NCBI GenBank assembly: GCA_947454355.1
Contig: CANGKR010000007.1
Span: 1 to 36,972, forward strand
Origin: Comamonadaceae bacterium
GTDB taxonomy: Bacteria; Pseudomonadota; Gammaproteobacteria; Burkholderiales; Burkholderiaceae_C
Length of the DNA: 36,972 nucleotides
Direction: 5' to 3'
Below the pieces are notes generated by a model. The model had not been told where the DNA came from and made no database searches. It worked only from the letters and a program-made list of their open reading frames with translations. Shown here one piece after another: positions 7,631 to 33,247 of the stretch. Each line of letters starts with the position of its first letter. The first letter of the stretch is position 1. The position numbers and the translations under genes are program-made.

Positions 7631-8590
7631 TCACAAAGGCTTTTTGATCCAGTGGGCGATCTCACCAATCACGCCACGGCGGAAGGCCATCACGCAGATC
7701 ACAAAAATAACGCCCTGCACCACGGTCACCCAAGCACCCAGTTGGGCAAGGTAATTTTCCATGCTGACGATCACCGCTGCGCCCACCAAGGGGCCAAACA
7801 GCGTGCCCATGCCGCCCACCAAGGTCATCAAGACCACCTCGCCCGACATGGACCAGTGCACATCGGTGAGTGAGGCGAGTTGAAACACCAGCGATTTGGT
7901 CGCACCCGAGGTGCCGGCCAAGGCGCCCGAGATCACAAAGGCCAAGAGCTTGAAGGTATCGGTGTCATAACCCAAAGACGTGGCGCGATCGGGATGCTCG
8001 CGAATGGCTTTGAGGATTTGACCAAAGGGCGAATGGACCACGCGCCAGATCAATAAAAAGCCCAGCAGGAAAATGCTCAACACGAACAGGTACATGTTGA
8101 AGTTGTCTTCCAGGTTGATCAGGCCAAACAACTTGCCACGCGGCACCGCTTGAATGCCGTCTTCACCTCCCGTGAAAGGGGCTTGCAAGCAAAAGAAGAA
8201 CACCATCTGCGCCAAAGCCAAGGTGATCATGGCAAAGTAAATGCCTTGACGGCGAATGGCCAAGAGACCCACCACCAAGGCCAGCACGGTCGAAGCAGCC
8301 GTGCCCAGCAGTACGCACCACTCGGGGTTCAGCCCCCAGGCCTTGGCCGAATAGGCGGCCACGTATCCGGCCGAGCCCATGAACATGGCATGGCCAAAAG
8401 ACAGCAGGCCACCAAAACCCAAGAGCAGATTGAAGGCTCCGGCGAACAGCGCGAAGCACATCACCTTCATCAGGAAAATCGGGTAGACCCAGATCGGGGC
8501 GATGGCAAAAATCATCACCATGATGACAAAGGCCACCCACTGGTGGGTGAGCGACTGCGTCTTGGGAGCGAGAGGCATTGCGTTGGACAT
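7631..8590 (-). CDS. livM: Branched-chain amino acid-type ABC transporter permease (LivM family)
   Basis: Hydrophobic permease with LLGFGGLLSFGHAMFMGSAGY and LVGGMGTLFGPLVGA. Confidence 0.92.
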   Translation of the reverse strand: MSNAMPLAPKTQSLTHQWVAFVIMVMIFAIAPIWVYPIFLMKVMCFALFAGAFNLLLGFGGLLSFGHAMFMGSAGYVAAYSAKAWGLNPEWCVLLGTAASTVLALVVGLLAIRRQGIYFAMITLALAQMVFFFCLQAPFTGGEDGIQAVPRGKLFGLINLEDNFNMYLFVLSIFLLGFLLIWRVVHSPFGQILKAIREHPDRATSLGYDTDTFKLLAFVISGALAGTSGATKSLVFQLASLTDVHWSMSGEVVLMTLVGGMGTLFGPLVGAAVIVSMENYLAQLGAWVTVVQGVIFVICVMAFRRGVIGEIAHWIKKPL

Positions 8591-8594
8591 GGGA

Positions 8595-9479
8595 TTACTT
8601 CTGGGTACCGAACAGCCCGGCGGGTTTGATCAAAAGAACGATGGTCATGATCACGAAAATGACCACATTGGACGCCTCGGGGTAGAACACTTTGGTCAGG
8701 CCTTCGATCAGACCCAGTCCAAAGCCCGTGATGATGGCGCCCAGGATCGAGCCCATGCCGCCGATCACCACCACGGCAAACACCACGATGATCAAATCAG
8801 CACCCATGGTCGGGTTGACTTGGTAAATCGGTGCGGCCATCACGCCCGCCAATGCGGCCAGGCCCACGCCAAAACCATAGGTCAGCGTGATCATCCGTGG
8901 CACGTTGATGCCAAAGGCCTGCACCAGGCTGGGGTTCTCGGTGGCAGCCCGCAGGTAGCCGCCCAGTTTGGTGCGCTCAATCACGTACCAGGTGGAGATG
9001 CACACCAAAAGCGAGGCCACGATCACCCAAGCCCGGTATTTGGGCAGGAACATGAAGCCGGTATTGAACGCACCTTGAAACACTTCGGGCACCGGATAAG
9101 GCATGCCCGAAGAGCCAAATTCATTGCGGAACAGCCCTTGAATGATCAGGGCCAGTCCAAAGGTCAAGAGCAGACCATACAGATGGTCGAGTTTGTAGAG
9201 TTGTTTGAGCATGGTGCGCTCGATCAGCACACCTGTGGCGCCCACCACCAAGGGCGTGATGACCAGCGCCGCCCAATAGTTGATGCCCAGTTTGTTCAGG
9301 CCCAAATAAGCCACAAAGGCGCCCAGCATGTACTGGGCGCCGTGGGTGAAGTTGATGATGTTCAGCAAGCCGAAAATCACGGCCAGGCCCAAGGAGAGCA
9401 GCGCGTAAAAGGACCCGTTGATGAGTCCGATCAGCAGCTGCCCGAACAGCGCTTGAGAGGGAATGCCAAAGATTTCCAT
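8595..9479 (-). CDS. livH: Branched-chain amino acid-type ABC transporter permease (LivH family)
   Basis: GLINGSFYALLSLGLAVIFGLLNIINFTHG, VIGGMGSILGAI. Confidence 0.94.
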   Translation of the reverse strand: MEIFGIPSQALFGQLLIGLINGSFYALLSLGLAVIFGLLNIINFTHGAQYMLGAFVAYLGLNKLGINYWAALVITPLVVGATGVLIERTMLKQLYKLDHLYGLLLTFGLALIIQGLFRNEFGSSGMPYPVPEVFQGAFNTGFMFLPKYRAWVIVASLLVCISTWYVIERTKLGGYLRAATENPSLVQAFGINVPRMITLTYGFGVGLAALAGVMAAPIYQVNPTMGADLIIVVFAVVVIGGMGSILGAIITGFGLGLIEGLTKVFYPEASNVVIFVIMTIVLLIKPAGLFGTQK

Positions 9480-9512
9480 GGTGATTTCAGGCTTGCAAGA
9501 ACATCAGTGGGT

Positions 9513-10730
9513 TTACTTCTTCGCGACGAGTGGGCAGTCGCCTTCGTTCAGAGGGCGGAAAGCTTCCGCTGCGGGAATCGTGGCGGCCACTTTGTAGTAG
9601 TCGTAAGGGCCTTTGGATTCCGAAGGCTTCTTGACTTCAAACAGGTAAGCGGGGTGGATCTTGCGACCGTCAGCGCGGATCGAGCCTTTGCCGAACAAGA
9701 TGTCGTCGGTCGGCAGCTCTTTCATCTTGGCTACCACCTTGGCACCGTCATCGGTCTTGGCAGCGTCCACGGCTTTGAGGTAATGGAGCACGCCAGCGTA
9801 AACACCTGCATGGTCAGAAGAGGGCATTTTGCCGCCGTGCAATGCTGCAAAGCGCTTGGACCATGCGCGGGTGCTGTCGTTCAAGTCCCAGTAGAAGGTC
9901 TCGGTCAACAGCAAACCTTGGGCTTTTTCAAGACCCAGGGCGTGCACATCGGTCAAGAAGACCAGCATGCCGGCCAGGTTCTGGCCGCCCTTGACGATAC
10001 CGAACTCGGCGGCTTGTTTGATCGAGTTGATGGTGTCGCCACCGGCATTGGCCAAGCCGATGATCTTGGCCTTGGAGGCTTGGGCTTGCAGCAAGAAAGA
10101 GGAGAAGTCTTGTGTCGGGAACGGTGTGCGGACCTTACCCACCACTTTGCCGCCGTTTTTAAGCACAACGGCTTCGGTGTCGCGCTCCAGGGCGTGGCCG
10201 AAAGCGTAGTCAGCGGTCAGGAAGTACCAGGTGTTGCCACCGTTTTTGACAATCGCCTTGCCTGTGCCGTTGGCCAGCATCCAAGTGTCGTACAGATAGT
10301 GCACCACGTTGGCATTGCAGGACTTGCCGGTCAGGTCGGCGGTGGCCGAGCCGGTGTTCACGTTGGCTTTGTTTTTGTCCTTGGAAATCTGGGCAATGGC
10401 CAGACCGACAGACGAGGTGGGCACGTCGGTGATCATGTCGACCTTGTCGGTGTCATACCACTGGCGTGCAATGTTGGAGCCCACGTCGGGCTTGTTCTGG
10501 TGGTCGGCGCTGACGATTTCCACTTTCAGCGTGCTCTTGGTGGCCTTGATGTAGTCTTCAACGGCCATTTTGGCAGCGACCACCGAGCCGGGGCCGCCAA
10601 TGTCAGCGTAGGGGCCCGACATGTCGTTGAGCACACCGATCTTGACGATGCCATCTGAAATATCCGCTTGGGCGGTGCTGGCGAATGCGCAGGCCGCCAA
10701 AGCAGCGGTGGCGAGAAGTTTGCGTTTCAT
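9513..10730 (-). CDS. ABC transporter periplasmic substrate-binding protein (LivK-like)
   Basis: Signal peptide MKRKLLATAALAACAFASTAQA, then IKIGVLNDMSGPYADIGG-type type I periplasmic binding fold. Confidence 0.93.
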   Translation of the reverse strand: MKRKLLATAALAACAFASTAQADISDGIVKIGVLNDMSGPYADIGGPGSVVAAKMAVEDYIKATKSTLKVEIVSADHQNKPDVGSNIARQWYDTDKVDMITDVPTSSVGLAIAQISKDKNKANVNTGSATADLTGKSCNANVVHYLYDTWMLANGTGKAIVKNGGNTWYFLTADYAFGHALERDTEAVVLKNGGKVVGKVRTPFPTQDFSSFLLQAQASKAKIIGLANAGGDTINSIKQAAEFGIVKGGQNLAGMLVFLTDVHALGLEKAQGLLLTETFYWDLNDSTRAWSKRFAALHGGKMPSSDHAGVYAGVLHYLKAVDAAKTDDGAKVVAKMKELPTDDILFGKGSIRADGRKIHPAYLFEVKKPSESKGPYDYYKVAATIPAAEAFRPLNEGDCPLVAKK

Positions 10731-20345: not shown

Positions 20346-21746
20346 ATGAACGAGGGAATCCTCCCCCAAGATGCCGGCGATCCGGGACTGGCCTTGTGGC
20401 AAATCTGTCTCGATGAACTTGCCCAAGAACTGCCCGAACAGCAGTTCAACACCTGGATCAAACCCCTGACAGCGCAAGTCGCTGAAGACTTCTCCAAGGT
20501 CACTATTTTTGTCGCCAACCGCTTCAAACTGGACTGGATCCGTGCCCAATATGTGGGCAAATTGACCGCCATGTTGGAGCGTTTGCAGGGTCAAAAAATG
20601 GTTGTGGAGTTAGCGCTCGCTACCAGAGAAGCCCCCGTCAAAACGGCATTTGCAACGCAAAAGGCTGCTCAAGAGGCCCTGGCCGAGACCGCCGAGCCTG
20701 TCGAAGACAGTCCTGCCAATGGTTTCAAGAACCGGCTCAACACCGCGCTGACTTTTGACAACCTGGTGGAGGGCTCGGCCAACCGCATGGCGCGTGCCGC
20801 TGCCATGCATGTGGCGAGCATGCCCGGGCATTTGTACAACCCCCTGTTCATCTACGGCGGGGTGGGCTTGGGCAAGACCCACTTGATGCATGCTATTGGC
20901 AACAAAATGCTGGCCGACCGCCCGGATTCGAAGGTTCTCTACATTCACGCCGAGCAGTTTGTGTCGGATGTGGTTAAGGCCTACCAGCGCAAGACTTTTG
21001 ACGAGTTCAAATACCGCTACCACTCGCTCGATTTGCTGCTCATCGACGACGTGCAGTTCTTCGCCAATAAAGACCGCACCCAAGAAGAGTTTTTCAATGC
21101 CTTCGAGGCTTTGCTGGCCAAAAAGTCCCACATCGTGATGACCAGTGACACCTACCCCAAGGGCCTGGCGGACATCCACGAGCGGCTGGTGTCGCGCTTT
21201 GACTCCGGCTTGACGGTAGCGATCGAGCCGCCTGAGCTCGAAATGCGGGTGGCCATTTTGATCAACAAGGCCATCAGCGAAGGCAGCGTCATGCCCGAAG
21301 AAGTGGCCTTCTTTGTGGCCAAAAACGTGCGTTCCAACGTGCGCGAACTCGAAGGCGCTTTGCGCAAAATCCTGGCTTATTCGCGCTTCAACCAAAAAGA
21401 CATTTCTATCCAACTGGCCCGCGAAGCCTTGCGCGACCTGCTGTCCATCCAGAACCGGCAGATCAGCGTCGAAAACATCCAAAAAACCGTGGCCGACTAC
21501 TACAAGATCAAAGTCGCCGACATGTACAGCAAAAAACGCCCAGCCAGCATTGCCCGGCCGCGCCAGATTGCCATGTACCTTGCCAAGGAATTGACGCAAA
21601 AAAGCCTGCCCGAGATCGGTGAGCTGTTTGGCGGGCGCGACCACACCACGGTGCTGCATGCGGTTCGCAAAATCAGTGCCGAACGCCAGCAATTGACCGA
21701 GTTGAACCAGCAGCTGCATGTGCTGGAACAAACCCTGAAGGGCTGA
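20346..21746 (+). CDS. dnaA: Chromosomal replication initiator protein DnaA
   Basis: [19 protein letters not shown] Walker [24 protein letters not shown]-terminal box-binding motif. Confidence 0.98.
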
Positions 21747-23060: not shown

Positions 23061-25676
<2,616 letters not shown>

Positions 25677-25684
25677 TCGATTAA

Positions 25685-25866
25685 TGACCTCATGTTGTCA
25701 AAAACCTATTTTGGCACCATGACGCGGATTGCGCGTACTCGCCAAGAACATGAGGGCGGCCTCATGTTCGAAAAGTTGAATTATTGCGACGCATTTGCTT
25801 GACGTGTCGCTCTTGAGAACATATTCTTCGAACATGTTTCAATAATTAAATTTTAAGTACATGTAC
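25685..25866. promoter_or_regulatory. Cluster of CATG-centred partial and perfect palindromes upstream of the Fic gene (putative operator region)
   Basis: TGACCTCATGTTGTCA 25685-25700; GAACATGAGG-GCGG-CCTCATGTTC 25746-25769 (10-bp perfect arms); GAACATATTC 25817-25826; GAACATGTTT 25830-25839; GTACATGTAC 25857-25866 overlapping the start codon. Confidence 0.5.
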
Positions 25867-26976
25867 GACATCGAAGGCGTTTGGCAGCCAGACCGGGCGC
25901 ACGACCAGTTACCGACACTGCCTCCGGGGCAAGACCTAGAGAGCAAAGCAGTGCTGCGTGCCTGCATTGCGGCCCGCGTTGCATTGGCGGAGTTGAAACA
26001 AGCCGCCGAGCTGATCCCCAACCAGACCATGCTCATCAACACCATTCCGCTGTTGGAAGCCAAAGACAGCTCGGAAATCGAAAACATCGTTACCACCACC
26101 GACCAGCTGTTCCAACACCAGGATGGTGATGGGCAAGCGGATCACGCCACCAAAGAAGCATTGCGTTACCGAACCGCACTGAACCATGGCTATCGGTCAC
26201 TCCGATCCAGGCCACTGTGCACGGCCACTGCGGTCGAGGTGTGTCGCACTCTCAAAGGTGCAGACATGGATATCCGGCGAACACCCGGCACCCAACTGGC
26301 CAACGACCGAACGGGCGAAGTGATCTACACACCGCCTGAAGGGGAAGACCGGTTGCGAACCCTGCTGGCCAACTGGGAACGGTTTCTGCACAACGAAACC
26401 GAACTGGACCCATTGATACGCATGGCTGTTGGGCATTACCAATTTGAAGCCATTCACCCCTTCACGGACGGAAACGGACGCACAGGCCGTGTCGTCAACA
26501 TCCTGTTTCTGATCCAGCAAGAGCTGCTGAACCTGCCCATCCTCTATTTGAGTCGGCACATCATCGCGAACAAAGCCGACTATTACCGCCTTTTGCTGGA
26601 AGTCACACGGGACCAGGCTTGGGAGCCTTGGGTCTTGTTCATGCTCAAAGCGGTAGAAGAAACATCGCGATGGACCACCGGAAAGATCGCGGCCATCCGG
26701 CAATTGGCCGAGCACACTACCGAACACGTACGGCTGAGCTTGCCCAAAATCTACAGCCGCGAACTGGTGGATGTGATCTTTGAACAGCCCTACTGCCGAA
26801 TTGGCAACCTTGTGGACAAGCAGATTGGCCAAAGGCAAGCCGCATCTCGGTATTTGAAAGAGCTCGTGGCCTTGGGCGTGCTGCGCGAGATGACTTATGG
26901 GAAAGAAAAGCTCTTCATCCACCCCAAACTGATGCAATTGCTCAGCCGCGACAGCAACGAGTTTAAAGCGTACTAG
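25861..26976 (+). CDS. Fic family AMP-transferase (Fic_N plus Fic domain, class II with N-terminal inhibitory helix, SoFic-like)
   Basis: [12 protein letters not shown] active-site motif; upstream SSEIEN matches (S/T)xxxE(G/N); C-terminal winged-helix-like region. Confidence 0.95.
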
Positions 26977-27344
26977 GCGGTCAGCCCAAACACGATGCCC
27001 AAAGCGGCGTGGCGGATCATTTCGTCGCCGCGTTTGCTGGTCGGGTCGGTGGCGTTCTGGCTTTGCCAGTGAAAGTGCGTGTCATCGATCCAGTGGTCCA
27101 TGTACTTGTGCGCGTCAGCTCGGCCTTGTTTGTTGAGCGTGACCAGCAGGATGTGCGCCTTTTTCTGGACCAGCACCACATGGCCGACATTCCAATTGCC
27201 GGGGTTGTAGGCCTCGCCAAACAGAGGCGGAATGTCTTCGCGCATGAAAGACTTACCGAGCGCCAGATCCAGTGGATCGATGATGTTGCGCAGGCGAGCG
27301 AGCGTGCGCATGTCGTCGGTGGTGGGCCGATCTAGGGCCCTCAA
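26973..27344 (-). pseudogene. Orphan DUF3427-like fragment, probably truncated at both ends
   Basis: REDIPPLFGEAYNPGNWNVGHVVLVQKKAHILLVTLNKQGRADAHKYMDHWIDDTHFHWQSQNATDPTSKRGDEMIRHAALGI resembles the core of DUF3427-type C-terminal domains but stops shortly after the H...G motif; only a TTG start, overlapping the stop of the upstream gene. Confidence 0.55.
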
Positions 27345-29443
27345 CTGGCCAGACCAGGCTTATGAAATGGTTCGGTTTCGGAATGCCACTCGCGGCAGCC
27401 GCATTTAATGAGATAACTCGCAATGTCGTCATACATGAGCGGATCACGCGTTTCATCATCACCTGTCTTATCACCAAGTGGGACAAAAATGATCATCCCC
27501 TTCCGCGCACGCGTAAGTAGTACGCGATAGCCATTTGTGGCAATGGCCAGCTCTTTGTCTTTTTGCCAATTAGACCCCGACATCTTCCAGGCCTGCCACT
27601 CACTGACGTTCCGTCGCAAATCACCATCCCAGCACACTACTGTGTAGTCCATTTCAAGGCCTTGCACTTGATACTGGTTCTGCACGGTTTCAAGCATGTT
27701 CGAAGATCGGACATCACCGCTTGGTTCGAGCATCCATTTTGCGATGTCTGGTTTGAGGTCTACGAACAAACCTTCCGCTGCAAGTCGCCTAGCTTGTCCC
27801 GAGGCGATGATTCCGGCGCGCTCTTGGGCAACTCGGCGCTGTCGAACCCAGTGCCTTGCAGTTTGTAGGCTGCGCGTAATCCAAACCGTGTCACCCCGTT
27901 CGTCAAGTTCGTGAGCCAATTTGCCCGCAGTGTCGACATTTCCGCTCAGGATGTGGTCAGCCCAGCGCTCAATATCGCCGTTCCTGTAGTAACGCATCGA
28001 ATGCGGAAGGTGACCAGTTGTCAAATGGTCTCGCAACGAATGTTGGGACCACTGGCCACTTGAGGTGACTTCATCGAGCGACAAGGTCTGTTCGCTTATG
28101 GCAAAACGCCATCCGCATACCTCAGCCGCTGTGAACCAAGCCTTAATGCCCATTTCGCCACTGTTGATGGCCTGGTTATGGCCAATAAGTGCGACCACGA
28201 TGGCACCTCGAGGATGAGTTTTTTGAATAGACTCGAGAATCAGTTGGGCCTCATCAGCTGCCAATGGTTTACGTAAAACGAGACGTCCTTTGCGATACGT
28301 CCGTTGCGCTTCATCGAAGATCACAACTCGACCATCTGCACTGTCTAGATGTTTACCGCGTTCACCTAGAAATGCGTGCGCCTTTACTAATTTGAAGGTT
28401 GACATGCTCATTACGCGAGCCGCATCTTCATGTGCATAACCACTCGCTACGACGGCTTGCATCGCTTGTTTGCTGCGACGTTTATACGCCCCTTTGAGTG
28501 CTTCACCGAGGACCTCTACCAGAGGGCTGTTACCAGTGACGAAAACTGCGTCGCTACGTAACCGCTTGTCGAATGCGAGCTTCAGTCCAACGAGAGTCTT
28601 ACCAGCGCCTGGTGCACCCGATACAAAAATAATTCGATTCGTACCATCACGTTGTGATTGTTCCGCAATTTCAGCGACTTCACGCGCACATTGATCAATC
28701 ATCTCGACGGGTGCGGCATGCGCTGCTATGGCGCTCACATCGTGTTGGCCATAAAGTGATATCGCAGCATCAAGGATGGAGGAGGATGGTGAAAAGCGTG
28801 CAGATAACCAGCGCCGACAATCGATAGGTATCCGGCCTCTGCGCTGTTCAAGAGAAAAATGCAATGCTGCATGAAGGGTGGTGCTATCACACTCCAATGG
28901 GCGACCAATCACACTGCCCCATGGTTCGCGAAGAAAACCGCCCTTAAAGCCAGAGGACTTGCCAGTCTTAGTGCCTGTTGTGAGCGTCAGCAGAGGTGCG
29001 ACGATGCATTGCTCTTCATTGATTAGCCTGCGCGTTTCCTCATGGAATTCAACGAGATTAACGGCATAGTTGGTGACCTGCTCACGGTCCGAGGCGCTCA
29101 GTTTTGTCCGTTTGAACTCAACAATAGCGACTATCCCATCTCCAAGAAGAACGCAGTCCATGCGAAGTCCGCGACGCTTGAAATCAAACTCAAGTAAAAC
29201 GTGACGGAAATCAGTCAACTCATCGGACGCTAGTGTTGACTTGAGAAGCTCAATTTCAGCTGTATGTTGATGGAGCTGACGTTGAAGAACGCCAACGCTC
29301 GCACGCCACTCCTCGTGCTGATCTGCTTCGACATGCAAACCCTCTGCCGCCGCACTGCTTGCCAGTTGACCGACAACAGCTTGTATGGGATCGCGGACAA
29401 ATGCTTCCCGCGCATTTACGTACCAAGCAGCACCAGCACTCAA
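27341..29443 (-). CDS. DUF2075 (Schlafen-like) DNA/RNA helicase with N-terminal PD-(D/E)XK-like nuclease region
   Basis: Walker A VSGAPGAGKT, Walker B VVIFDEAQR, QVQGLEMDYTVVCW and NGYRVLLTRARKGMIIFVP motifs; N-terminal RMDCVLLGDGIVAIVEFKR fits D-x(n)-ExK; TTG start with AGGAG upstream. Confidence 0.85.
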   Translation of the reverse strand: MSAGAAWYVNAREAFVRDPIQAVVGQLASSAAAEGLHVEADQHEEWRASVGVLQRQLHQHTAEIELLKSTLASDELTDFRHVLLEFDFKRRGLRMDCVLLGDGIVAIVEFKRTKLSASDREQVTNYAVNLVEFHEETRRLINEEQCIVAPLLTLTTGTKTGKSSGFKGGFLREPWGSVIGRPLECDSTTLHAALHFSLEQRRGRIPIDCRRWLSARFSPSSSILDAAISLYGQHDVSAIAAHAAPVEMIDQCAREVAEIAEQSQRDGTNRIIFVSGAPGAGKTLVGLKLAFDKRLRSDAVFVTGNSPLVEVLGEALKGAYKRRSKQAMQAVVASGYAHEDAARVMSMSTFKLVKAHAFLGERGKHLDSADGRVVIFDEAQRTYRKGRLVLRKPLAADEAQLILESIQKTHPRGAIVVALIGHNQAINSGEMGIKAWFTAAEVCGWRFAISEQTLSLDEVTSSGQWSQHSLRDHLTTGHLPHSMRYYRNGDIERWADHILSGNVDTAGKLAHELDERGDTVWITRSLQTARHWVRQRRVAQERAGIIASGQARRLAAEGLFVDLKPDIAKWMLEPSGDVRSSNMLETVQNQYQVQGLEMDYTVVCWDGDLRRNVSEWQAWKMSGSNWQKDKELAIATNGYRVLLTRARKGMIIFVPLGDKTGDDETRDPLMYDDIASYLIKCGCREWHSETEPFHKPGLAS

Positions 29444-29556
29444 AATTCGCTCCTAAATTATTCGTTTTAGTTTATCGGATGATGCTTGTGCAGTCTGCGC
29501 TTGGAAAGTTATTTTTACCTCGTTCCTCCCTTGTTTTATAACCCTTGTTGTTGCTT

Positions 29557-29742
29557 TTAGTAAGGGTCTTGGGTTTTAAAAGATGATGAAGGCGGCATCG
29601 GCCAACCATTGGTGATATTGCTTGCGCTGTTGAAGGCGCAGTATTTGAATCGCATGCACTCCAGCTGCCCAAATGGCAGTTGCAGGTAAATGTGAAACGC
29701 AGCCAATGTTTCGTTGCGCGTCCAGTCGGTGGATCGTGGCAT
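29557..29742 (-). pseudogene. Remnant of an HNH-endonuclease-type N-terminal domain
   Basis: MPRSTDWTRNETLAAFHIYLQLPFGQLE resembles the WTRDELxxAxxLYxxxPFGxL start of a family of HNH endonucleases; the sequence after that does not continue the family pattern and no HNH motif follows. Confidence 0.35.
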
Positions 29743-29767
29743 GTGTTGTTCTCCCTGACGGCAGATG

Positions 29768-30190
29768 TTAGCTGTCCTCGTCCCACGGGATCGGTTTGGC
29801 TTGTCTGCGCAAATCGTTGGGGCGGGTGTTTTGCCGGAAGGTGTCGGGTGGCCTGAAGCATTCTTCTGGCGTCACCACATAGACCGTCCAATCGCCGTAC
29901 AGCTTGCCGTCAAAGCACAGCAGGTCGCCGTTGATGGCCAAGTCCATGAGCGTGTCGTGGGTGCCTGTGAACAGTTGGGCATCTGTGGGGCTGACAAATT
30001 CCACATTCACCGAGCAGGCGTAGGTGGTGTGAAAGTACCTGAGCGGCCCAATGGCCGGACCATCAAAGCCCCAGCCGTTCATGACTTGGTTGGGTGTATC
30101 GCGGCCATGAAACAAGCCCAGATATAAGCCGGGCTTGCTGGGGCGAACGCCATAAACAGGCGTGGTGCTTGGGTCTGTTGCGGGGTGCAT
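29768..30190 (-). CDS. Hypothetical protein (GLYLGLFHGRDTP...)
   Basis: Intact ORF with a composed, protein-like sequence; start chosen at MHPATDPS; family not recognised. Confidence 0.65.
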   Translation of the reverse strand: MHPATDPSTTPVYGVRPSKPGLYLGLFHGRDTPNQVMNGWGFDGPAIGPLRYFHTTYACSVNVEFVSPTDAQLFTGTHDTLMDLAINGDLLCFDGKLYGDWTVYVVTPEECFRPPDTFRQNTRPNDLRRQAKPIPWDEDS

Positions 30191-30279
30191 GTTGCCTCCA
30201 TGTGGGTGAGGCAATCAGCTTAAGAAAAGGGTGCGGCTTTGTGTACCAGGGCTTTGCCTGGGTCAATCGCCCATGCCGG

Positions 30280-30990
30280 TCAATTCAGCCCATCCACAAC
30301 CATCACCCCCCGCAGCCCCACCCCAAAACTCTTGAACCCTTGCGCGTCCCACTGGGCGCTGCTGTCAATGTTGTCGTGTTGGTGGCCGTGCACCGTCATG
30401 CGCACGCCCATGCGGCGGGCCAATGTGTCCAGCTCATTGAATCCGTGTTCGTGGTAACCGGGCGCTTCGTGGGTGATGAGAATGTCGGCTTGCAGCGCGG
30501 CAAGTTGTTCCAACTCGTCGGGGTAAATGCTGGACCAATGCTTCAGGTGCACGCTGCCTTGCCAGCGGTCTTGGCGCGGGGTGACGTGGGCGTGATCTTT
30601 GCGGTTGCGAAACTTGGGTTCTTGTGCGTCTTTGGGGTACCACACCGCCCCGCGAAACACGCCGCCCAGCCCGGCCACACGAGTGCCGCAGGGCAGCGTG
30701 ACGACACGGCCGTGCAGGCTGCGCTCGCTCACTTCGTCGTGCCAGACGTTGGCAAAGTTGTCCGCATGGTCCGTGTCGTGGTTGCCGTGGATGAACCAAA
30801 CGCGTTCCCAAATCGCTTCCAGCTCGATGTGCAGCGGCCGTGCCGGCTCCAGATCGCCCAGCAAGATGACGGCGCGGGCGCGGGTTTGCTCGGCCGCATC
30901 GATGATGTGCTGCCATTGGCCGTGCGGGTCGCCGCAGAAGAGGATGGGGCCGGGGTGCATGGGCGTGAGTGAATGAAGTTTCTTTCGCAT
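30280..30990 (-). CDS. Calcineurin-like metallophosphoesterase
   Basis: GDPHGQ, LGDLE, HGNHDTDH, THEAPGYHEHG, HGHQHDN motifs; start at 30990 or 30960. Confidence 0.9.
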   Translation of the reverse strand: MRKKLHSLTPMHPGPILFCGDPHGQWQHIIDAAEQTRARAVILLGDLEPARPLHIELEAIWERVWFIHGNHDTDHADNFANVWHDEVSERSLHGRVVTLPCGTRVAGLGGVFRGAVWYPKDAQEPKFRNRKDHAHVTPRQDRWQGSVHLKHWSSIYPDELEQLAALQADILITHEAPGYHEHGFNELDTLARRMGVRMTVHGHQHDNIDSSAQWDAQGFKSFGVGLRGVMVVDGLN

Positions 30991-32391: not shown

Positions 32392-32417
32392 AAAACGGAG
32401 CCTAAGGGCTCCGTTTT
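32392..32417. terminator. Bidirectional Rho-independent terminator between phasin and EamA genes
   Basis: AAAACGGAGCC-TAAG-GGCTCCGTTTT. Confidence 0.85.
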
Positions 32418-33247
32418 GCGTTGAACGCGCTGCCCATGGAGGCGGTCATGATCAAAGCGATGGCGGCCAGTTGCTGCGCCGTCAATTGTTCTGACAACAT
32501 CAACCAACCCGCCACCGCGCCCACCGCGGGCTCCAGGCTCAACAGCACGCTGAAAGTGAGCTTGGGCAAATGTTTGAGCGAATACATTTCCAGCGAGTAC
32601 GGCACGGCGCTGCTGACCAAGGCCACGATCAATCCGGTGATCAACCAGGGTGTGTCGAACATCGTGGTGCCAGCTGAATACAAACCAAAAGGCGTGACCA
32701 CCATCGCGGCGATCAGCATGCCCATAGGTGTGGCCATGGCGCCATAGCGGGCGGCCACCCGTTGACCAAACACGATATACAGTGCCCAACAACAACCAGC
32801 GCCCAGCGCAAATGCCATGCCGAGCGGGTCCAGCGCTTGAATGCTGCCAGGCCAAGGCAGGATCAAGCCCAACCCCAGCACCGCCAGCGCGATCCACACA
32901 AAGTCGATGGGTTTGCGCGATGACCACAGGGCTACGGCCAAGGGTCCGGTGAATTCAATGGCCACCGCCAGGCCCAGCGGGATGGTCTGGATCGCAAAGT
33001 AAAACTGCAGGTTCATCAAACCCATGGGCAGGCCATACAGGAGCAGCGGCGCCAGATCGGCCCGGTTCCAGCTTCGGCGCCAGGGGCGTAAAAACAGCAT
33101 CAGCAACAGGGTGGAGAACACCAGCCGCAAGGTGGTGGTGCCTGCCGCACCCAGCACAGGAAACAGACTTTTTGCGTACGAGGTGCCAATGCACAGCGAC
33201 ACCAGACTGCCCATCAGGGCGGCCACGGGCCAGACGGGAAAACTCAA
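32402..33247 (-). CDS. EamA/DMT family transporter (RhtA-like exporter)
   Basis: ~10 hydrophobic segments with RhtA-like sequence; upstream-most start is TTG overlapping the preceding stop. Confidence 0.88.
   Translation of the reverse strand: MSFPVWPVAALMGSLVSLCIGTSYAKSLFPVLGAAGTTTLRLVFSTLLLMLFLRPWRRSWNRADLAPLLLYGLPMGLMNLQFYFAIQTIPLGLAVAIEFTGPLAVALWSSRKPIDFVWIALAVLGLGLILPWPGSIQALDPLGMAFALGAGCCWALYIVFGQRVAARYGAMATPMGMLIAAMVVTPFGLYSAGTTMFDTPWLITGLIVALVSSAVPYSLEMYSLKHLPKLTFSVLLSLEPAVGAVAGWLMLSEQLTAQQLAAIALIMTASMGSAFNAKRSP

Follow-up and report, generated by a model that had tools for sequence, protein, structure and literature searches.

The interval between gyrB and an eamA-type gene is, as judged from sequence comparison, a defence hotspot of the freshwater genus Limnohabitans, and the stretch of DNA analysed here (contig CANGKR010000007.1, 36,972 nucleotides, hereafter the window) carries one allele of it. 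The window is one contig of a metagenome-assembled genome (2.69 Mb, 222 contigs, 85% complete) whose genus is Limnohabitans, the name carried by the relatives retrieved with its DUF3427 tail. In this allele, two intact genes, encoding a class II Fic AMP-transferase (SoFic) and a putative DUF2075 nuclease-helicase, lie among two gene fragments, a DUF3427 tail and an HNH gene stub. Alignment to congeners identifies these fragments as opposite ends (3′ and 5′, respectively) of one displaced operon; comparison of the loci shows that the operon body has been replaced by the DUF2075 cassette and that the SoFic cassette separates the tail from gyrB. Taken as a whole, a hotspot allele with a displaced operon and relic-anchored cassette exchange is the best explanation of the locus, and one that we regard as probable.

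Two gene fragments and a displaced HNH and SauUSI-like operon

In profile searches, the DUF3427 piece matched only the C-terminal part of the Pfam DUF3427 profile (E=1.5e-10) and the HNH stub matched PADLOC HNH over residues 2-29 only (E=1e-6). At the same place, Limnohabitans sp. G3-2 (G024) has an intact HNH gene of 258 amino acids (aa; PADLOC HNH, 308 bits), followed on the same strand by a 1292-aa gene with methyltransferase, PLD, SF2 helicase, S24 and DUF3427 regions, the product of which scores 386 bits against PADLOC mREase_IV. When aligned to this pair, the window stub corresponds to the start codon and about 27 codons (HNH codons 1-27), and the window tail to codons 1128-1240 and the last codons of the 1292-aa gene, 40 codons having been lost in frame between GCATCG direct repeats. 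What is left of the displaced operon is 372 nt from its DUF3427 end and 80 nt from the 5′ end of HNH; the window fragment has neither the PLD nor the helicase of a SauUSI-like enzyme, whereas the intact congener gene has these and DUF3427. By this comparison, an HNH and SauUSI-like operon once faced gyrB at this locus. Isolate Bal53 (G027) shares both DUF2075 borders, so that an assembly error is excluded and the replacement is real; in isolate 15K, the gyrB-SoFic-tail order is the same as in the window.

The features of the locus are as follows.

23073-25676, + strand: gyrB, left border of the hotspot
25677-25860, + strand: gyrB-SoFic spacer, conserved upstream region of SoFic (alignment of SoFic upstream regions)
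25861-26976, + strand: SoFic, class II Fic AMP-transferase, intact (NCBIfam, PADLOC, Pfam, motif alignment)
26973-27344, - strand: DUF3427 tail (Pfam and alignment to the SauUSI-like gene)
27341-29443, - strand: DUF2075 / SLFN-g3 helicase, PDC-S41, intact (Pfam, PADLOC, conserved motifs)
29663-29742, - strand: HNH gene stub (PADLOC HNH and alignment to the intact HNH gene)
29768-30214, - strand: orf148, right flank of the variable part
30280-30990, - strand: metallophosphoesterase (MPP), gene of the right flank
32402-33247, - strand: eamA-type gene, right border at empty sites

An original prediction, made from the letters of the window, had placed four such elements between gyrB and housekeeping genes, with three minus-strand members opposite Fic, close to the replication origin. 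Profile searches found all four at these coordinates, the DUF3427 piece, the DUF2075 gene and the HNH stub on one strand and Fic on the other, and dnaA at 20346-21746 puts the block near the origin region. The prediction had also called the possible hotspot partly decayed. The DUF3427-like and HNH-like fragments both exist, but they are not independent decayed genes, and "displaced by newer cassettes" is the better wording.

A genus-wide hotspot between gyrB and eamA

In several Limnohabitans congeners, eamA directly follows gyrB, leaving an empty site. Elsewhere in the genus the cargo includes the HNH and DUF3427 system, HipBA, HigBA and SoFic; AbiEi with a Fic/Doc protein, and AbiEi/AbiEii; an Mza-like gene together with a C5 methylase and an EcoRII-N piece; Dnd-like DndB/FtsK-DndE/DndD; a PD-Lambda-4-like protein; and a second type of PDC-S41. 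The other interval genes across the genus score with PADLOC or belong to toxin-antitoxin modules. Among ten open reading frames (ORFs) of the core flanks used as a control, a single one was PADLOC-positive, the housekeeping gene dprA. Conserved flanks, empty sites and varied defence cargo among relatives are the features by which a defence hotspot is recognised, and the gyrB-eamA interval shows all three. The prediction of a small defence hotspot is supported, since the presence of the four elements varies among relatives (of the 60 genomes searched, 11 have DUF2075 homologues, and some sites are empty), base composition and codon use are anomalous, and the interval genes are defence-scoring or toxin-antitoxin genes. 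More precisely, the hotspot is a genus-wide cassette array delimited by gene-end relics.

At L098, L099, L104, L134, L136 and L139 the hotspot and its relics lie beside recG, not gyrB, which suggests a rearrangement that separated gyrB from the array. A contig titled Akkermansia muciniphila (L128) bears the Limnohabitans gyrB hotspot, and this record looks mislabelled or misbinned.

The divergence of the pieces further shows, at the level of the sequences compared, that the block is younger than its flanks and forms a recent horizontal mosaic. Between the window and congeners, synonymous divergence (dS) was 0.14-0.20 for SoFic and 0.18 for DUF2075 (Bal53), vs 0.38-0.50 for gyrB, 0.56-0.70 for exo and 0.28-0.47 for MPP. 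For orf148, of which two alleles exist within the genus (~72-79% identity), dS was 0.12-0.15 vs L. parvus II-B4 and 15K but 0.55 vs Bal53. As dS differs from piece to piece, neighbouring pieces have different closest relatives.

Recurrent gene-end relics at the cassette borders

A survey of DUF3427 tails covered 34 named loci. Shortened 3′ tails occur between cassettes, up to four per locus and in every case on the strand opposite gyrB; 9 loci have two or more tails, and 7 have a full-length gene. The codon at which the tail starts is cassette-specific: 1169-1175 beside the second DUF2075 type (ten loci), 1191-1197 beside HipA and 1128 beside the DUF2075 gene of the window. Break points range overall from codon 978 to ~1255, with no common start. 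In members of the bacterial family outside the genus, the DUF3427 domain is mostly part of one long ORF (14 of 16 matches in frames of at least 595 aa). A virus as carrier of the tail was considered and rejected, none having been found in IMG/VR.

Relics of the gyrB 3′ end mark cassette borders in about a dozen congeners; in six loci in which SoFic no longer adjoins gyrB, such a relic immediately precedes SoFic. Within the hotspot, ~17 to 178 codons of the gyrB 3′ end are duplicated at L068, L076, L098, L104, L108, L109, L111, L114, L134, L137 and L139, and L103 has a longer second copy. Repeated relics flank different cassettes in one orientation, as expected of a homology-driven displacement array. 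Tails of one genome are 94.9% identical, vs 87.7% between genomes (label permutation, p=0.0002), a difference to which relatedness contributes. The tails fall into two haplotypes, ~80-86% identical, and SoFic is 94-98% identical across both backgrounds.

The SoFic gene

SoFic matches the NCBIfam equivalog NF046030 over its full length (646 bits, cut-off 550) and the PADLOC SoFic profile with 409 bits, and comprises three Pfam domains, Fic_N, Fic and a SoFic-like C-terminal domain. It is likewise a full-length match to the solved SoFic chains (structures 3EQX and 3ZCN; PMC12249575), with ~526-530 bits. Alignment to solved SoFic located the N-terminal class II inhibitory motif SSEIEN and a 12-residue catalytic motif that fits HPFx(D/E)GNGRxxR. 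The assignment to class II Fic AMP-transferases was thus correct. SoFic is an abortive-infection AMPylator that acts against phages (PMC12249575); by analogy with this homologue, the window protein would AMPylate host targets and so abort the infection. In the E. coli system, a 47-aa antitoxin, AS1, is encoded downstream (PMC12249575), whereas the downstream neighbour in the window is the convergent DUF3427 relic, which overlaps the SoFic stop by a few bases. No AS1-like ORF was recognised downstream of the window SoFic.

Upstream of SoFic lie partly palindromic GAACATG/CATGTTC boxes, a palindrome at 25746-25769 and a second box at ~25817-25842, which are kept in all ten SoFic loci compared and are possibly an operator read by the SoFic C-terminal domain. 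Within the DUF2075 coding sequence, 18 nt at 27689-27706 resemble the inverted box (89%), which may be due to chance.

The DUF2075 gene for a putative nuclease-helicase

The DUF2075 protein matches Pfam SLFN-g3_helicase (PF09848; 180 bits) and, over nearly its entire length, PADLOC PDC-S41 (556 bits; residues 5-687 on positions 3-654 of 657). Its Walker A motif GAPGAGKT (residues 276-283) and DEAQ motif (residues 377-380) are kept in eight DUF2075 homologues, the former as GxPGAGKT. In the N-terminal part, E85, D96 and E109-x-K111 are invariant, an E...D...ExK pattern typical of PD-(D/E)XK nucleases; the structure model is poor (mean predicted local distance difference test score 55.5) and too weak for confirming this fold, and no relative was found in the PDB by sequence. 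These features suggest an ATP-driven nuclease-helicase that would act on foreign nucleic acid. PDC-S41 is a family of phage defence candidates, and no experimental study of it was found in the literature searched; the gene is a candidate defence gene only. As the original prediction held, Fic and the putative nuclease-helicase are both intact, each matching its family profiles essentially over the full length.

The DUF2075 gene starts with TTG, preceded by the ribosome-binding site AGGAG. Its guanine-plus-cytosine (GC) content is 0.519 and 0.482 at third codon positions, compared with 0.596 and 0.768 for gyrB and 0.629 and 0.781 for MPP. It has the worst codon fit among the long ORFs of the window, and the 1-kb stretch 28601-29600, with a GC content of 0.498, is among the lowest 0.3% of 1-kb stretches in the window. 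The AT-richness noticed by eye is therefore borne out by computation. Among the 60 genomes searched, the window type of DUF2075 was found, outside its own genome, only in Bal53 (97% identity). The second type, 31-34% identical to that of the window, fills this slot, but oriented the other way, in ten loci (L123, L124, L126-L130, L132, L134 and L136). Carriage of the gene by a plasmid was rejected, as only distant homologues were found (25-28% identity).

Elsewhere in the window, a 718-aa ORF at 8502-10658 (+ strand) has no Pfam or NCBIfam match and overlaps long minus-strand ORFs; it is probably a spurious antisense frame.

Proposed cassette exchange and alternative explanations

We propose that cassettes enter and leave by RecA-dependent homologous recombination anchored in the DUF3427 tail, the gyrB 3′ end and the orf148/HNH side, each cassette having first been joined by homology-facilitated illegitimate recombination. 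The setting would probably be natural transformation: a search of eight genomes found ComEC in each, and the core flank close by contains dprA. On a more specific view, the 3′ ends of gyrB and of a restriction gene would serve as reusable homology sockets of an integrase-free, genus-wide array, in which cassettes are inserted, stacked and removed by ordinary recombination and the relics are kept alike within each genome. For this more specific proposal our confidence stops just short of even, and we put it forward tentatively. Several points weigh against the explanation of the locus as a whole. No crossover gradient was found inside the tails, and the haplotype identity profile, similar in all cassette contexts, does not place the exchange points; a gradient seen where the tail adjoins the second DUF2075 type was dropped, as the similar profile beside HipA and SoFic indicates uneven divergence. 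The similarity of tails within a genome is due in part to lineage. In addition, the second-type DUF2075 is about as diverged between genomes as gyrB, which fits vertical descent of that cassette, and the defence activity of SoFic and of the DUF2075 gene is presumed from homology.

One rival explanation holds that the DUF3427 tail is not an anchor but was retained as a functional small protein, such as a modified-base reader or an antitoxin-like partner. The tail frames are open in 17 of 17 copies examined, with a ratio of nonsynonymous to synonymous divergence of ~0.20, which fits such a protein too, the tail residues are strongly conserved, and tails next to the second DUF2075 type have an ATG shortly ahead of the conserved part. 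However, the window copy has lost 40 codons, the break points spread from codon 978 to ~1255 leave no start in common, and the tail adjoins many unrelated cassettes; we consider this explanation rather unlikely. Vertical inheritance of accessory genes that decay slowly, with no hotspot, would account for the divergence of the second-type DUF2075 but is contradicted by the low dS of SoFic, the window DUF2075 and orf148, well below that of the flanking core genes, and by the empty sites; many congeners are without these genes or have other systems, and this account is very improbable.

A site-specific mobile island that targets the gyrB 3′ end, with gyrB copies as duplicated attachment (att) sites and the tails as passengers, would fit several genomes in which ~18-37 codons of the gyrB 3′ end are duplicated downstream of that gene, much like att sites regenerated at the 3′ end of a gene. 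The duplicated lengths nevertheless vary from ~10 to >400 codons, with no constant att repeat, and neighbouring cassettes differ, having the relics alone in common. In 14 genomes, the hotspot contained neither a tyrosine integrase (PF00589) nor an rve transposase (PF00665), in a search that did not extend to serine recombinases or further families of transposase, and no att-like direct repeats of note flank the block in the window. Such an island is distinctly unlikely. An artefact of assembly might be suspected in a genome as fragmented as this one, but isolates Bal53 and 15K, as well as further assemblies, share its junctions, which leaves this explanation scarcely credible.

Comparison with known systems

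The genes of the hotspot belong to known families; the hotspot itself is undescribed in the literature searched, where nothing on point was found for a gyrB hotspot, DUF3427 tails or Limnohabitans defence, and its pattern of scars is unusual. SauUSI is a type IV restriction enzyme with PLD, ATPase/helicase and C-terminal DUF3427 regions (PMC3874153). The displaced gene has PLD, helicase and DUF3427 in the same order but also has a methyltransferase at its N-terminus, an S24-like region and a partner gene, HNH; of this operon, the window retains no more than the two ends.

The variable defence content between core genes and the frequent empty sites recall the E. coli defence hotspots (PMC10121019). 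In the latter, mobile elements make up most of the content, and many of them have integrases (PMC10121019). Mobile elements that bring their own recombinases account for most defence hotspots described so far, whereas no integrase was seen in the Limnohabitans hotspot. The locus displays defence turnover beside a core replication gene with the cassette joints still visible. If these joints are recombination anchors, Limnohabitans offers a directly testable case of immune genes stacked and swapped purely by homology, and comparable hotspots elsewhere could be sought by their relic pattern.

A further parallel is with the type VI secretion immunity arrays of V. cholerae, which were built by displacement and for which homologous and homology-facilitated illegitimate recombination have been proposed (PMC5361080). 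In both cases, leftovers lie behind successive insertions with no integrase. The Limnohabitans cassettes, however, are phage-defence and toxin-antitoxin modules, their relics derive from gyrB and a restriction gene, and, unlike the immunity genes of V. cholerae, the relics of one genome resemble each other.

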